Source: Mesorhizobium hawassense (GTDB lineage Bacteria; Pseudomonadota; Alphaproteobacteria; Rhizobiales; Rhizobiaceae). From it: a stretch of 64,000 bases of DNA. How positions within the stretch are numbered: position 1 is the stretch's first letter; the number at the start of each line of letters is the position of its first letter. The stretch is from contig NZ_QMBP01000003.1 in the NCBI RefSeq assembly GCF_003289945.1, positions 186,001-250,000 of the forward strand. Reading direction: 5' to 3'. The notes under the pieces were generated by a model, which had not been told where the DNA came from, searched no databases, and worked only from the letters and a program-made list of their open reading frames with translations. This document shows positions 58,600-64,000 of this stretch, piece after piece. The position numbers were made by a program, and so were the translations under genes.

Positions 58600-59307
58600 T
58601 CAGGCGCGGCCGTAGAGCGGGACCAGCGTGCCGCTCATCGCCTGGTTGGCGGGTGAGGCGAGATAGGCGATCGCTTCGGCCGCAGCCTCGAGGCTGACCC
58701 ATTTGGCGAAATCGGCGTCGGGCATGTCGGCGCGGTTGGCGGGCGTGTCGAGCGTCGAGGGCGCAACGGCGTTGACCAGGATGCCTTTGCCTTTCAGCTC
58801 TTCGGCCATCGCCACCGTCATGGCCGCGACCGCCGCCTTGCTCGCGGCATAGGCGACCATCCCGGAGCCGCGCCTGGGTTCGAGGCCGGCGCGCGCGGTG
58901 ACATTGACGATGCGGCCGGCCGTGTTGGAGGCCAGCATCGAGCGCACCGCGGCGCGGCTGCACAGGAACGCCGTGCGGGCGTTGGTGTCCATCATTTCGG
59001 CGAAGGAGGCGGACTCGATCTTTTCGACCGGCGCCATGGTGAAGCCGCCGGCAAGGTGGATCGAGGCCCAGAGCTCGGGTAGCTGATGGTAGAAGGCCTC
59101 GACCTTGGCCGAATCCGACAGGTCGACATTATGCGCCAGATGCACGCTGGCGTGGGCTGCAAAAGGAAAATGCGGCGGCGCCGCCGCGTGGGCGTTCGGC
59201 ACGTGGCAGATCGCGCCCTGTTCAAGCAACCTGCCGACAACCGCGCCGCCGAGCGCCCCAGTGCCGCCCGTCACCACGATATGCCTGCCATTCAGCGTTT
59301 CCGTCAT
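58600..59307 (-). CDS. SDR-family oxidoreductase
   Basis: A 235-aa short-chain dehydrogenase. It has V-T-G-G-T-G-A-L-G-G near residue 12 for nucleotide binding, H-L-A-G-G-F near 84 in place of the usual N-A-G, N-V-T-A-R-A near 134, the YAASK motif at about 151-155 and A-P-S-T-L-D-T-P near 183. I chose the ATG at 59307 because AGGAG lies upstream; the earlier frame start at 59394 runs through AT-rich promoter-like sequence. The substrate is unknown. It lies between the two inverted palindromic repeats. Confidence 0.82.
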   Translation of the reverse strand: MTETLNGRHIVVTGGTGALGGAVVGRLLEQGAICHVPNAHAAAPPHFPFAAHASVHLAHNVDLSDSAKVEAFYHQLPELWASIHLAGGFTMAPVEKIESASFAEMMDTNARTAFLCSRAAVRSMLASNTAGRIVNVTARAGLEPRRGSGMVAYAASKAAVAAMTVAMAEELKGKGILVNAVAPSTLDTPANRADMPDADFAKWVSLEAAAEAIAYLASPANQAMSGTLVPLYGRA

Positions 59308-59507: not shown

Positions 59508-61088
59508 TCAGTCGACGGTGATTTCGATGACGCGCGGCTTGCCGGCCGCCCGCGCGCGCTTCAGCGCCTCGGTGAGGCCGCCGACCCCGGCCAGCCGCTC
59601 GGCCTCGATGCCATAAGCGTCGGCGAGCTTGCAGAAATCCGGCGGCGCCGGCGATACGCCGACCGGCTCGACGCCCACATCGAGCATCGAGGTCTCGATC
59701 TCGCGATAGCCGCGATTGTTCCAGACGACGAAAATGACCGGCGTTTCGGCATCGAGCGCGGCGCCGATCTCCGGCAAAGTGAACTGGAAGCCGCCGTCGC
59801 CGGTGAGGCACACCACCGGCGCTTGCGGAACGGCAAGCGCCGCGCCGATCGCCGCCGGCGGACCGTAGCCCAGCGCGCCGAAACCGGTCGCGGCGTTGAA
59901 CCAGCCGCCGGGACGGTCGTGGTCGTAATAGAGGTTGGCGGCATAGATGGGCTGTGTCGAATCGCCGACGATGATGGCGCCCGGCAGCGTGTCGCGGATC
60001 AGTTCCACGGCGCGCAACTGCGCCAGATATTCCGGCCTCAATTCGGCCAGCGCCGCTTCTCGCCCCGCTGCCGCGCGGCCTTCGCCGTCTTTCGCGGCGA
60101 CGTGGTCCTGCCCAAGCGCGGCAAGCAAAGCCTCGATCCCTTCGGCGCAATCCGCCTGGATGCCGACCGTCACCGGACGGCGTGCGATCTGGTCGGCGCC
60201 GATGTCGATGCGGATCAGGTTCTTCGGCAGCACGAAGCCGCCGTCGCCATAGCCGTCATAGTCGGTGGGGCCGAATTCGGTGCCGGCCGCGATCACCAGA
60301 TCGGCGTCCGCCATCAGCGCGCGCACCGCCTTGAGGCTGGGGCTGGCCGGCACGCAAAGCGGATGGCCATGCAACAGGCCACGCGCATTGGCGGTTTCGA
60401 CCACGGGCGCGCCAAGCGTCTCGGCCAGGCGCCGCAGCGCCGCGTCGGCCTTTTTGGCGCCGCCGCCTGACAGGATCAGCGGCCGACGGGCGGCCTTGCA
60501 GAGCCGCGCCGCCTCGGCAGTCGCCGCCGCGTCCGGCGCGGGCGGCGCGACATTGCTCAGCGCCGCCGCGATGCCGTCGGCCGGTTTGACCATGACGTCG
60601 GTGGGAATTTCGATATGGACCGGGCCCGGCCGCGCCGACGAAAACAACGCGAAGGCGCGGGCGAGCGCGCCCGGCAATTGATGGGCTTCAGTGACGCGCT
60701 CGGAAGACAGCGCCACCTTTTCCATCATGCCGCGCTGGTCGGGCAGCTCATGCAGGAAGCCGAGCCCCTTGCCGAGCGTATCGGTGGCGTTGACGCCGGA
60801 GATGACCAGCATCGGTACCGAATCGGCGCGCGCCTGACCCATGGCGGTGATGGTGTTGGTGAGCCCCGGCCCGGTGATGACGAAGGCGACGCCCGGCCGG
60901 CCGCCGGCACGCGCATAGCCGTCGGCCATGAAGCCGGCGCCCTGCTCGTGGCGCGGCGTGACATGGCGGATCTTCGAACGCGCCAGGCCGCGATAGAGCT
61001 CGACCGTGTGCACGCCCGGAATACCGAAGACGGTGTCGACGCCATGCGCTTCGAGCAAGGTGATCAGCGCTTCGCCGATGGTTGTCAT
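59508..61088 (-). CDS. aruI: TPP-dependent decarboxylase (AruI-like, 5-guanidino-2-oxopentanoate decarboxylase)
   Basis: A 526-aa acetolactate-synthase-fold enzyme. V-F-G-I-P-G-V-H-T-V-E-L near residue 23 and T-P-R-H-E-Q-G-A-G-F near 45, with the catalytic Glu, match AruI of Pseudomonas. G-D-G-G-F-Q-F near 431 then W-N-N-R-G-Y gives the TPP/metal motif. AruI decarboxylates 2-keto-arginine in the arginine transaminase route. A TetR regulator and a DDAH/arginine-deiminase-fold protein follow upstream on the same strand, and an amino-acid ABC transporter is nearby. That supports the arginine assignment, but generic acetolactate synthase activity cannot be excluded. The ATG at 61088 has AGGAG upstream. 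Confidence 0.8.
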   Translation of the reverse strand: MTTIGEALITLLEAHGVDTVFGIPGVHTVELYRGLARSKIRHVTPRHEQGAGFMADGYARAGGRPGVAFVITGPGLTNTITAMGQARADSVPMLVISGVNATDTLGKGLGFLHELPDQRGMMEKVALSSERVTEAHQLPGALARAFALFSSARPGPVHIEIPTDVMVKPADGIAAALSNVAPPAPDAAATAEAARLCKAARRPLILSGGGAKKADAALRRLAETLGAPVVETANARGLLHGHPLCVPASPSLKAVRALMADADLVIAAGTEFGPTDYDGYGDGGFVLPKNLIRIDIGADQIARRPVTVGIQADCAEGIEALLAALGQDHVAAKDGEGRAAAGREAALAELRPEYLAQLRAVELIRDTLPGAIIVGDSTQPIYAANLYYDHDRPGGWFNAATGFGALGYGPPAAIGAALAVPQAPVVCLTGDGGFQFTLPEIGAALDAETPVIFVVWNNRGYREIETSMLDVGVEPVGVSPAPPDFCKLADAYGIEAERLAGVGGLTEALKRARAAGKPRVIEITVD

Positions 61089-61110
61089 TGGTTTTCTCCT
61101 ATTTGTTTTT

Positions 61111-61158
61111 CGCAATTCCGGACGGAAAACCGCTTGTCACTTTTCCTGGAATTACTCT
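61111..61158. repeat. Rhizobial-type palindromic repeat, right copy
   Basis: A 48-bp element that is the inverted near-copy of 58534-58580 (CGCAATTCCGGACGGAAAAC at the start, CTGGAATTACTCT at the end). A few substitutions and one indel separate the copies. It overlaps the 3-prime end of the TetR-family gene (stop at 61152). Confidence 0.85.
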
Positions 61159-61781
61159 AGCGGCCCAAGGCCGAGTTCGGCCTCGACGGCCTTGATGCCA
61201 ATCGCCGCCAATTCGCCTTGCGAAAACATCTCGCCGGCCAGGCAGCCTTCGATCCAGAGCCCGTCGATGATCGCGTTGATCGCGATGGCGTGGCGGCGCA
61301 GCTCAGCCGCGTCCGGCTTGCGCCGTTCGGCGGCGAGCACTTCGGCCACGACCGCTTCCACCTCGTTGCGAAAGCCAAGGTAGCCTTCGCGGTGGGCGCG
61401 GGCGAGCGTCGGATCCGCGCCGGCGCGGCCAAGAAAGGTTGCCCAGAGCGAGAATACCCGCTGATCGATGATCGGCGCGTTGAGATTGGCGGTGACGAAA
61501 GCCGCAAGCCGCTGGCGCGGCGAGGCATCGTCCATGACCAAAGCCGCTTTAGCTTGCTCGGTCATGCGGCCCATAAGTGCCGCATAGGCCTCCTGCAGCA
61601 GGTCTTCCTTGCCGGGGAAATAGTGCCGGATCAGCCCGGCGGTGACGCCGGCGCGCAAGGCGATGGTGCGCACGGTGGCGCCCCGCAGGCCATGTTCGGC
61701 CACGCTGTCCAGGGTCGCATCGATCAGGTCCTGCCGCCGCCGCTCCTCGCCCTCGCGGCGGAACTTGCGGCGCGCATTCAT
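61152..61781 (-). CDS. TetR-family regulator (BetI-like)
   Basis: A 209-aa regulator with an N-terminal helix-turn-helix (R-R-Q-D-L-I-D-A-T near residue 16; A-L-R-A-G-V-T-A-G-L-I-R-H-Y-F near 41-55). The C-terminal domain has A-D-G-L-W/I-D-G-L-W-I-E-G-C-L-A-G-E near 175-190, typical of the BetI-type family. I chose the ATG at 61781, which overlaps the upstream gene stop by 4 bp (ATGA). It probably controls the hydrolase, decarboxylase and perhaps the divergent transporter. The ligand may be an arginine-derived metabolite. Confidence 0.88.
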   Translation of the reverse strand: MNARRKFRREGEERRRQDLIDATLDSVAEHGLRGATVRTIALRAGVTAGLIRHYFPGKEDLLQEAYAALMGRMTEQAKAALVMDDASPRQRLAAFVTANLNAPIIDQRVFSLWATFLGRAGADPTLARAHREGYLGFRNEVEAVVAEVLAAERRKPDAAELRRHAIAINAIIDGLWIEGCLAGEMFSQGELAAIGIKAVEAELGLGPLE

Positions 61782-62650
61782 TGGCGCAGGATCGGCCGCG
61801 TCAGGCATGTCGGCCCGCCTTCACAGGCGATGCAGAGCGCATCCGCCTCGAATATCTCGACCGTGCAGCCGGCGGCTTCCATCGCGGCCTTGGTCTTGGG
61901 GAAGCCGGCAACGGCAATCACCTTGTGCGGACTGGTCGGCAGCACGTTCAGGCTGAGGCCGTTGGAAGCGGCGAACTCTCCGGCGTCGCCTTCGACCAGT
62001 CGGATGCCGCGCGCCTTCAGCATCTGATAGAACGCGGCCGGCAACAGCGGTGAATAGACCAGAGCGAGGTCGTCGGCGAGCGGGCTGATCACCGACATCA
62101 GATGCAGGCACGCCTCTTCGCCCTGCCACAGCGGCAGATCGAAGCCGTAGACGGAAATGCCCAGCGGCGTCAGCAGGTTGGCAACCTGCTGGATGCCTTC
62201 CTGGTTGGAGCGGACGCCGCGCCCGATCGCCAGCGTGCGGGCGTCCACCCACACGCAATCGCCGCCCTCGACCTGGCCGGGAGCCTCGACGCGGCCGAGG
62301 ATCGGGATGCCCAGTCTTTTATAGGTTTCCTCGTGCAACGAGGGCTCCTTGGCGCGCAATGGCTTGCCCATGGACAGGATCAGCGCGCCGCGGTCGGTCA
62401 TCAGCGACGGGTCGTGCGTGAACACCGAATCTGAAAGGCCGTCGGCCTTGTCCTCGATCCATTCGATTTCGGCGCCGGAAGCCGCCACCAGCTCGGCAAG
62501 GAGCGCATGCTGCGAGGCCGCTTTCGCCGGGTTGAAGCCCGGGCCGTAGTGCCAGGCAGCCCTGTCGGCATCGCGCATGGCGTTGGCCGCCGACCGCATC
62601 AGCACGCGCCGCAGCGGCGCCGCCATGGACTGTGATCCGAAAGCGCTCAT
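61778..62650 (-). CDS. Dimethylarginine dimethylaminohydrolase/arginine-deiminase-fold protein
   Basis: A 290-aa amidinotransferase/deiminase-superfamily enzyme. The five-fold-propeller features visible are V-F-T-H-D-P-S-L near residue 77, E-G-G-D-C-V-W at about 128-134, G-R-G-V-R-S-N-Q-E-G near 143, C-L-H-L-M-S-V near 180 with the catalytic His, and the nucleophile Cys in G-G-P-T-C-L-T-R-P near 280. The combination fits DDAH-type hydrolases that release citrulline from arginine or methylarginines. The neighbours (AruI-like enzyme, TetR, amino-acid transporter) suggest arginine or methylated arginine as substrate. Confidence 0.85.
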   Translation of the reverse strand: MSAFGSQSMAAPLRRVLMRSAANAMRDADRAAWHYGPGFNPAKAASQHALLAELVAASGAEIEWIEDKADGLSDSVFTHDPSLMTDRGALILSMGKPLRAKEPSLHEETYKRLGIPILGRVEAPGQVEGGDCVWVDARTLAIGRGVRSNQEGIQQVANLLTPLGISVYGFDLPLWQGEEACLHLMSVISPLADDLALVYSPLLPAAFYQMLKARGIRLVEGDAGEFAASNGLSLNVLPTSPHKVIAVAGFPKTKAAMEAAGCTVEIFEADALCIACEGGPTCLTRPILRQ

Positions 62651-62705
62651 CGATGCCCTTTTAAGCTGAAAAAAATCGAAAAATTTTCATGAGCGGCTAT
62701 TTATA

Positions 62706-62730
62706 CACTTGCACAACAACGCCGCAAGTG
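62706..62730. promoter_or_regulatory. Inverted repeat in the hydrolase / ABC transporter divergent promoter
   Basis: CACTTGC (62706-62712) and GCAAGTG (62724-62730) form a 7-bp inverted repeat with an 11-bp spacer inside an AT-rich 211-bp gap. It sits 56 bp upstream of the hydrolase start and 132 bp upstream of the transporter start. It is a candidate operator for the TetR regulator or a separate factor. Confidence 0.5.
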
Positions 62731-62861
62731 CCGTAATGTGCGGGATTGACGGGCTCGCGCTGTTGGGTCCATGCTGAAGTCTGGAGCGGGCAGTGCAGCG
62801 TAATGTTGATTAGCCGGATAGACGTTCGACGACCTGCCGTCGGCCAAATAGAGGTCACCCG

Positions 62862-63677
62862 GTGAGCGCGGTGGACGCTGCCGCAGTCCGATCAGGCGAG
62901 GCGCAAAACAGCGCCGCCGAAGCCATCCACGTCGAAAACCTGCACAAGAAGTTCGGTCAGCTGCACGTGCTGAAAGGCGTTTCGCTGTCGGCGCGCGACG
63001 GCGAGGTGGTCGCCATCATCGGCGGTTCCGGTTCCGGCAAATCGACGCTGTTGCGCTGCATCAACTGCCTGGAAAACCCGACCAGCGGCATCATCCGGGT
63101 CAATGGCGAGGAGATCAAGCTCAAGGCCGACAGCCACGGCCACACGGTTCCGGCCGATCGCCGGCAGATCGAGCGCATCCGTTCCCGGCTCGGCATGGTG
63201 TTCCAGAATTTCAACCTCTGGAGTCACATGACCTTGATCGAGAACGTCATCGAGGTTCCGGTGCATGTGCTGGGCGTCAAGCGCGACGAGGCGATCGCGC
63301 AAGCCGAGAAGCTGCTCGCCCGCGTGGGGCTGGCGGAGAAGCGCGACGTCTATCCGGCATTTCTGTCCGGCGGGCAGCAGCAGCGCGCCGCGATCGCCCG
63401 CGCGCTGGCGATCAATCCGCGCGTCATGCTGTTCGACGAGCCGACGTCCGCGCTCGATCCCGAGCTGGTCGGCGAGGTGCTGAAAGTGATCGGCGACCTG
63501 GCGCGCGAGGGGCGCACCATGGTGCTGGTGACGCATGAAATGAAGTTCGCCCGTGAGGTCGCGACGCATGTCGTCTACCTCTACAACGGGCTGGTCGAGG
63601 AGGAAGGTCCGCCGGAACAGCTGTTCGGCGCGCCCAAATCCGAAAGGCTCAAACAATTCCTCCGCAATGTCGGCTAG
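62862..63677 (+). CDS. Polar amino-acid ABC transporter ATP-binding protein
   Basis: A 271-aa ATPase of the HisP/GlnQ/ArtP family. Walker A G-G-S-G-S-G-K-S-T is at about 54-62. F-Q-N-F-N-L-W-S-H-M-T near 112 is the Q-loop, F-L-S-G-G-Q-Q-Q-R near 167 the signature and M-L-F-D-E-P-T-S-A-L-D-P near 189 the Walker B. The longer-than-usual insert after Walker A (K-L-K-A-D-S-H-G-H) is characteristic of the histidine/arginine/octopine transporter ATPases. The GTG at 62862 follows GAGG. It is followed 56 bp later by a family 3 binding protein. A basic amino acid such as arginine is the likely cargo from context. Confidence 0.93.
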   Translation: MSAVDAAAVRSGEAQNSAAEAIHVENLHKKFGQLHVLKGVSLSARDGEVVAIIGGSGSGKSTLLRCINCLENPTSGIIRVNGEEIKLKADSHGHTVPADRRQIERIRSRLGMVFQNFNLWSHMTLIENVIEVPVHVLGVKRDEAIAQAEKLLARVGLAEKRDVYPAFLSGGQQQRAAIARALAINPRVMLFDEPTSALDPELVGEVLKVIGDLAREGRTMVLVTHEMKFAREVATHVVYLYNGLVEEEGPPEQLFGAPKSERLKQFLRNVG

Positions 63678-63733
63678 GAGCCGGCATCAAGCGGGGCGAA
63701 AACCGGGAACAACAACAAACTGGGAGTCCTGAC

Positions 63734-64000
63734 ATGAAGACTGTTCTCAAGACATTCGCGGCGGCGCTGCTACTCGGCGTCGCGGCGATGGGCGGCGTGG
63801 CAAAGGCCGAGCAGGTCAAGATCGGCGTCGCCGCCGAGCCATACCCGCCCTTCACCTCGCCCGATGCCAGCGGCAAATGGGTAGGCTGGGAGATCGAATT
63901 CGTCGACGCGGTCTGCGCCGAGGAGAAGCTCGATTGCGTGATCACCCCCGTCGCCTGGGACGGCATCATTCCGGCGCTGACGACGAAGAAGATCGACGCC
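63734..64000 (+). CDS. Amino-acid-binding periplasmic protein (family 3 SBP), partial
   Basis: The first 89 codons of a binding protein that runs off the window end. Signal peptide M-K-T-V-L-K-T-F-A-A-A-L-L-L-G-V with A-K-A cleavage near residue 25, then mature V-K-I-G-V-A-A-E-P-Y-P-P-F-T-S, the classic family 3 start, with G-W-E-I-E-F-V-D-A-V-C near 52 and W-D-G-I-I-P-A-L near 75. The ATG at 63734 follows GGGAG. It pairs with the ATPase at 62862-63677; the membrane permeases presumably lie beyond the window. Confidence 0.92.
   Translation, partial: MKTVLKTFAAALLLGVAAMGGVAKAEQVKIGVAAEPYPPFTSPDASGKWVGWEIEFVDAVCAEEKLDCVITPVAWDGIIPALTTKKIDA

Follow-up and report, generated by a model that had tools for sequence, protein, structure and literature searches.

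A candidate uptake and catabolism unit for arginine and Nω-substituted arginines in Mesorhizobium hawassense

Does a single gene cluster in a soil bacterium serve both arginine and its methylated derivatives? The question arises from a 64,000-nucleotide stretch of Mesorhizobium hawassense DNA (the window; positions 186,001 to 250,000 of NZ_QMBP01000003.1, contig 13 of a 7.33-Mb genome). An earlier note, made from the letters alone, had described an AruI-like decarboxylase, a TetR regulator and a hydrolase with the fold of dimethylarginine dimethylaminohydrolase (DDAH) at window positions 59508–64000, divergent from an amino-acid ABC transporter ATPase and substrate-binding protein (SBP), and had read them as an arginine/methylarginine catabolic unit. 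We found the genes as described, although the unit is longer than that interval: a short-chain dehydrogenase/reductase (SDR) gene follows downstream of the decarboxylase, and the genes for two permeases and an Ldh2-like dehydrogenase come after the window end. With about even confidence, we explain the locus as an inducible unit that would import L-arginine and Nω-substituted arginines and degrade them for nitrogen. It looks like a separate version of the arginine transamination unit already known from rhizobia, not an entirely novel system. The unit itself, its type of transporter, the decarboxylase subfamily and the catalytic residues of the hydrolase agree with the earlier reading; the scores on DDAH models, two positions of the hydrolase pocket and the lack of a transaminase in the cluster do not.

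In our proposed scheme, the ABC transporter would import a basic amino acid, and the hydrolase would strip the substituted amine from the guanidino group of Nω-substituted arginines, giving citrulline or the matching ureido acid. Methylarginines set free from methylated proteins are the likeliest of these substrates. Citrulline would then enter ordinary arginine metabolism, and the AruI-like enzyme would decarboxylate the 2-oxo acid derived from arginine, from ornithine or from both, yielding an aldehyde on the way towards γ-aminobutyrate. Until a ligand appears, TetR would bind a palindrome and keep the hydrolase operon repressed; the transporter operon that diverges from it may be under the same control. 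The computation bears out the gene content, its conservation, the joint occurrence of regulator and operator and the composition of the hydrolase pocket, whereas every substrate, the direction of regulation and the origin of the 2-oxo acid are our deductions.

The decarboxylase and the conservation of its neighbourhood

The thiamine-diphosphate-dependent 2-oxo acid decarboxylase (59508–61088, minus strand) scored 771 bits (772 in the genome search) on NF005712, the curated model for 5-guanidino-2-oxopentanoate decarboxylase with a cut-off of 500, and 283 bits on the acetolactate synthase model TIGR00118, well below the cut-off of 538. The scores support membership in the 5-guanidino-2-oxopentanoate decarboxylase subfamily, with activity on 2-ketoarginine predicted, and the enzyme is AruI-like as the earlier note had proposed.

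We compared the locus with two sets of relatives. The closest set comprises the best 80 of 241 hydrolase relatives (78–98% identical); as these were chosen by the hydrolase and are nearly all Mesorhizobium, the genus of the nearest relatives in the homologue search (hydrolase identity 97–98%), they are not independent samples. The decarboxylase was present in 79 of the 80 loci (exception L080), the ATPase likewise in 79 (exception L078), the TetR gene in 56 and the Ldh2-like gene in 74, five of its six misses being loci that end at contig ends. The wider set holds 81 loci (L001, which is the window locus, and L187–L266), of which 68 carry a decarboxylase at least 38% identical and 39 of these also an ATPase at least 65% identical. 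It was hand-picked from about one place per genus of the family (44 of 92 places, our own included), places from a phylum search and hydrolase matches, and some of its loci come from the same genus or genome. The SDR gene (58600–59307, minus strand; Pfam adh_short, 5e-32) was found in 70 of the 80 closest loci, but in only 5 of the 39 decarboxylase–transporter loci of the wider set. It is possibly the last gene of the decarboxylase side, its membership being less sure because of a gap of about 200 bp after the decarboxylase.

We reject an acetolactate synthase identity for the decarboxylase on the 283 bits against 538. That the enzyme is a biosynthetic or catabolic acetolactate synthase in an accidental neighbourhood would fit its Pfam domains, which are identical, but is extremely improbable given the score of 771 over 500, the seven further NF005712 matches elsewhere in the genome that all stay below 290 bits, and its adjoining the hydrolase in all but one of the closest loci.

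The hydrolase pocket

The hydrolase gene (61778–62650, minus strand; Pfam ADI, 7e-15) encodes a guanidino-group modifying enzyme of the superfamily of DDAH and arginine deiminase (ADI). The nearest solved sequences are DDAHs (E value 2e-14 with the single sequence and 2e-17 with a profile, against 4e-4 and 2e-5 for ADI), yet the scores on curated DDAH models (78.5, 63.8 and 27.7 bits, for cut-offs of 340, 450 and 300) and on the ADI model (40.3 against 489) all fall short. We numbered residues after P. aeruginosa DDAH (L267) and aligned 27 sequences, the window hydrolase and 26 linked members of at least 60% identity; the roles of some of the mapped positions are our assumption. D60, D66, R85, E114, R132, H162 and C249 are retained in all 27, which thus have the Glu-His-Cys catalytic residues and the amino-acid binding Asp60, Arg85 and Arg132 of a DDAH. 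Two pocket positions set them apart: position 65 is His in 27 of 27, where P. aeruginosa DDAH has Glu and the ADI of the same genome Arg, and position 164 is Met in 27 of 27, where the two have Lys and Asp, respectively. The other roles are drawn from PMC11659421, in which the deiminase Asp stabilises the guanidino moiety and the DDAH Lys at that place leaves room for the dimethylamino group.

By these features the window hydrolase is neither a canonical DDAH nor an arginine deiminase. Because its amino-acid-binding residues are retained, the substrate is probably an α-amino acid; since the deiminase Asp is lacking, an Nω-substituted guanidine is a better candidate than unsubstituted arginine. 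The enzyme shares fold and catalytic residues with arginine deiminase (arcA), but it lacks the Asp two residues after the catalytic His, has Asp60 rather than Asn and measures about 290 aa. A full ADI is encoded elsewhere in the genome (PF02274, 398 bits, C24). A second, distant guanidino-hydrolase homologue of the same genome (C18:55346–56050) has Asp after the catalytic His and is without Asp60. The AlphaFold model of the window hydrolase (pLDDT 78.8, weak at 274–281 beside the catalytic Cys282) has the superfamily α/β propeller fold, with Z scores of 22–26 to ADI, NnhA, DDAH, amidinotransferases and ArgZ. As these values are close across the superfamily, we dropped the fold comparison as a means of telling DDAH from ADI; a literature search on ArgZ residue Asn71 gave nothing usable.

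The ddaR–ddaH locus of P. aeruginosa (L267) resembles the window in that a DDAH-fold hydrolase with catalytic Cys, His and Glu adjoins an amino-acid transporter gene. The transporter there is a basic amino acid antiporter whereas that of the window is an ABC importer, and the window differs further in its His65/Met164 pocket, the added decarboxylase and another regulator; we found no literature pairing DdaR with asymmetric dimethylarginine.

The His65/Met164 pocket, which resembles neither that of P. aeruginosa DDAH nor that of the ADI encoded elsewhere in the genome, also means that the hydrolase could act on another guanidino amino acid, and that it and the unit serve a different soil or legume guanidino or amidino amino acid (canavanine, homoarginine, hydroxyarginine etc.) is an alternative we consider unlikely. 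Many Mesorhizobium are legume symbionts and most carriers in the closest set belong to this genus; the transaminases of some sister clusters come nearest to the GntC model, albeit below cut-off (240–308 against 415 bits). On the other hand, certain sister clusters carry instead a DDAH with the P. aeruginosa pocket, and related clusters extend to further families within the same order and class (L197, L199, L207).

The hydrolase might also act late in the route and take the place of guanidinobutyrase, with 4-guanidinobutyrate or the corresponding aldehyde made by the decarboxylase as its substrate. A nearby guanidinobutyrase-like ureohydrolase was found in none of 32 decarboxylase loci with a hydrolase of at least 35% identity and in 8 of 36 without one (Fisher P = 0.006); L249 holds a ureohydrolase of this kind together with a hydrolase relative that, at 27% identity, does not reach the 35% threshold. 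The contrast, however, follows phylogeny, most ureohydrolase loci belonging to other tree groups; the residues that bind the α-amino and α-carboxyl groups are retained, which weakens late action; the genome has ureohydrolases of 44–45% identity elsewhere; and a hydrolase relative in L126 (see below) has a context without such an intermediate. We regard this role as very unlikely.

Transport, the 2-oxo acid and related clusters

The transporter operon runs in the opposite direction, on the plus strand. Its HisP-like polar amino-acid ATPase (62862–63677; NF007908, 358 bits, below the cut-off of 466) is followed by the SBP, whose N-terminal part occupies 63734–64000 and whose whole gene extends over contig 13:249734–250531; with the two permeases and the Ldh2-like gene, the operon continues past the window (contig 13:249734–253294). 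The SBP is nearest to LAO/HisJ, the best solved matches being the lysine/arginine/ornithine (LAO)-binding protein (E value 3e-48); TIGR01096, the best of the SBP models listed, gave 232.7 bits, below its cut-off of 256.35. In the alignment to the LAO protein, R77 and D161 are kept and D11 is not; we take the first two to hold the α-carboxylate and α-amine and D11 to hold the side chain. Both permeases exceed the cut-off of the HEQRo-type model TIGR01726 (49.4 and 42.3 bits against 42.2). The claim that the unit has its own amino-acid transporter is thus upheld, the LAO/HisJ-type importer sharing a regulatory region with the hydrolase operon.

The decarboxylase would also need a source of its 2-oxo acid. 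In Sinorhizobium meliloti, according to PMC7268258, an AruI-like decarboxylase, IlvB1 (SMc02263), lies downstream of the arginine:pyruvate transaminase AspC (SMc02262), with which it was assayed; the authors relate IlvB1 to AruI and report a sevenfold preference for ornithine-derived 5-amino-2-oxopentanoate. SMc02259 encodes the binding protein of an amino-acid ABC system (PMC2848018), and its position, judged from locus-tag order alone, fits the order transporter–TetR–transaminase–decarboxylase seen in L233 and L244. The window cluster differs from AspC/IlvB1 in lacking a transaminase and in having the DDAH-fold hydrolase as the first gene of its operon. No transaminase was found in the window locus L001 or in the examined stretches of the 80 closest loci, and the best homologue in the genome, 36% identical, lies elsewhere; the pairing of an arginine:pyruvate transaminase with the decarboxylase, as in aruH–aruI, is therefore absent. 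With the AruH–AruI system of P. aeruginosa, the window has the decarboxylase subfamily NF005712 in common, by family model rather than by direct sequence comparison, but it lacks an AruH partner and has a TetR regulator. The P. aeruginosa arginine transaminase pathway is reportedly regulated by the two-component system AruRS. AruH and AruI are both named in PMC7268258.

The Ldh2-like dehydrogenase (contig 13:252293–253294, which is L001:8294–9295, plus strand) ends the transporter operon. In the Ldh2 (L-sulfolactate dehydrogenase-like) family, His44 and His116 of AllD are described as invariant (PMC3527362). The window-type proteins have neither: among 88 aligned rows, some genomes appearing twice and one 26% outlier being possibly misaligned at these columns, neither of the two columns ever holds His. 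Val or Met fills the first in 87 rows and Thr the second in 86; at the column of Arg48, by contrast, 87 rows have His. Although the nearest solved relative is a Δ1-piperideine-2-carboxylate reductase, a reductase role is doubtful because both family histidines are absent. A bolder reading holds that the cluster contains two new enzymes, a third guanidino hydrolase subclass (His65/Met164) doing DDAH-like work and an Ldh2-like dehydrogenase that has lost both catalytic family histidines and would supply or use the 2-oxo acid in the transaminase's stead, within a unit dedicated to arginine and Nω-modified arginines; we think this rather unlikely.

The preference of IlvB1 also bears on an ornithine route. 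Here the hydrolase would be a deiminase or dihydrolase turning arginine into citrulline or ornithine, the decarboxylase would mainly convert 5-amino-2-oxopentanoate to 4-aminobutanal, and neither 2-ketoarginine nor methylarginines would be physiological substrates. 5-Amino-2-oxopentanoate cyclises to a pyrroline analogue, which accords with the solved relative of the Ldh2-like protein, and the ArgZ/AgrE dihydrolases are among the structural matches of the hydrolase. The route nevertheless seems doubtful to us: behind its catalytic His the hydrolase has Met where the ADI of the same genome has Asp, that complete ADI is already available from another part of the genome, the hydrolase subfamily that replaces the window type in sister clusters is DDAH-like, and the missing histidines make the reductase role doubtful.

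Returning to uptake and catabolism of arginine together with Nω-substituted arginines, the 39 decarboxylase–transporter loci carry a hydrolase of the window type in 26 cases and of a P. aeruginosa-DDAH-like type in 4; 9 have none and no locus has both. L200 would be a fifth locus of the DDAH-like type but did not pass the identity filter for the ATPase. The DDAH-like type has E65 and K164 in five of five, with E114 changed to Asp in one, and its gene is placed after the decarboxylase (L197, L199, L200, L261) or behind the transporter genes, as the 3'-terminal gene of their operon (L229). These two placements form separate groups on our quick decarboxylase tree, in which 25 of 65 inner branches are weakly supported and which carries a long-branch warning. 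At least nine changes of hydrolase state fall on the tree, counted without distinguishing gain from loss. A link of the decarboxylase with DDAH-fold hydrolases is supported for two subfamilies, one of them with the P. aeruginosa pocket; the window type departs from that pocket at two positions.

Several points weigh against our preferred explanation. The hydrolase reaches only 28–79 bits on DDAH models with cut-offs of 300–450, its His65 has a counterpart neither in DDAH (Glu) nor in the genome's own ADI (Arg), and the close Z values of the fold comparison do not separate deiminase, DDAH, amidinotransferase and dihydrolase. To our knowledge, no activity has been described for any member of the window-type subclass. 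Nine of the 39 decarboxylase–transporter loci do without a DDAH-fold hydrolase, and hydrolase relatives of 36–57% identity also occur in other settings with no decarboxylase nearby. The expected upstream transaminase is missing from the cluster, and the oxo acid favoured by IlvB1 of S. meliloti is the one that derives from ornithine (PMC7268258).

Transaminase and Ldh2-like genes were never found together in the 39 loci, 21 having the former, 12 the latter and 6 neither (Fisher P = 5e-6). As each changed only about three times on the tree, their exclusion may be one event; with no independent pair in its support, we dropped it as proof. An M20 amidohydrolase, which may release arginine from N-acyl conjugates, occurs in 12 of the 21 transaminase clusters (L207, L217, L227, L228, L233, L244 and others) and in none of the 18 others, at the place of the Ldh2-like gene; L233 and L244, with the S. 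meliloti-like order, are thus among those that have it where the window cluster has the Ldh2-like gene. The transaminases nearest to the model of GntC, a γ-hydroxyarginine cyclodehydratase (240–308 bits, cut-off 415), include L137:10559–11785, L138:10550–11773, L218:8738–9931 and L223:5008–6285. Plasmids of Shinella (L137) and Rhizobium sp. AB2/73 (L138) combine the transporter, hydrolase and TetR genes with a class I/II aminotransferase and have no decarboxylase in the stretch examined.

In one genome of the class, a 43% hydrolase relative lies beside an arginase (276 bits, cut-off 228), an ornithine aminotransferase (529 bits, cut-off 378) and an amino-acid ABC transporter (L126:3693–10361), an arginine context, in this single genome, without the 2-ketoarginine step; no further arginase-linked hydrolases were found in two genomes of the order of G184. 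Relatives of about 41–42% in L127 and L128 stand beside a DMSP-lyase-like protein, the neighbours in L127 also including a Pot-type ABC ATPase and a formate–tetrahydrofolate ligase.

The earlier note had considered a combination of arginine routes unusual. This did not hold: in Bradyrhizobium bacteroids, intermediates of the arginase, deiminase and transaminase routes were all labelled, and the supply of arginine to nitrogen-fixing bacteroids has been put forward as a core element of the symbiosis (both in PMC7268258). That paper, the only one on point among the titles and abstracts searched, lacks the word Mesorhizobium, and we found no report on such genes in Mesorhizobium among the same titles and abstracts. 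With this locus, one could examine whether methylated arginines serve soil bacteria as a source of nitrogen.

The TetR gene and its candidate operator

The regulator gene (61152–61808, minus strand; Pfam TetR_N and TetR_C_6) encodes a TetR-family protein with a BetI-type C-terminal domain that stays below both BetI cut-offs (113.0 against 118 and 111.5 against 201.3 bits). Between the divergent arms we located, as the earlier note had indicated, the inverted repeat CACTTGC-N11-GCAAGTG (62706–62730, no strand). Its presence tracks the TetR gene: the exact repeat was found in 56 of 56 closest loci with TetR and in 0 of 23 without (L078, in which no ATPase gene was found, was excluded). Kinship is partly behind this match because the two groups of loci correspond to two hydrolase sequence groups. 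Across the 7.33-Mb genome there is a single copy of the paired repeat and none with one mismatch, and two-mismatch copies number 12 against 9 for a control pattern; single arms in the window are not enriched (4 observed, 8.1 expected).

For the wider set, we applied the looser pattern GCACTTG-N13-CAAGYGTATA to the 39 decarboxylase–transporter loci. At a threshold of at least 15 of 17, it was found in 23 of 27 loci with TetR and in 0 of 12 without, the pattern having been defined after seeing the Mesorhizobium sites and the threshold chosen after seeing the scores. The top score among loci without TetR was 14 of 17 (L256), and the top of 50 single-base shuffles per region was 13. The four TetR loci below the threshold (L197, L199, L207, L261) retain the right half, CAAGYGTATAA. 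This half belongs to a shorter palindrome, ATTATNC-N4-GNATAA; since it is clear in these four loci, the true operator may be centred there. TetR and operator each changed seven times on the decarboxylase tree, and an independent-pair test was not significant (three of four pairs agreeing, one without difference, none opposed; P = 0.25).

Given this co-occurrence, TetR very probably uses the inverted repeat as its operator. That it acts as a repressor at this one site is well supported, although we infer the direction of regulation. On the minus strand, TATAAA (62700–62705), a possible −10 element of the hydrolase operon, abuts the proposed operator, and TTGCGG (62722–62727) is a possible −35, both read from the sequence; TATAAA or TATAAT stands at the same place in many TetR loci, and a generic promoter scan of the region gave no site above threshold. 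A DDAH-fold hydrolase, a decarboxylase and an importer, tied to a TetR switch that has a single operator, make up a directly testable unit, and the locus offers a candidate ligand-responsive regulator.

The minus-strand genes would be transcribed in the order hydrolase, TetR, decarboxylase and SDR, TetR overlapping the hydrolase. The decarboxylase starts at an ATG with AGGAG upstream, an alternative being the TTG at 61115; for TetR, an alternative ATG at 61781 overlaps the stop codon of the hydrolase.

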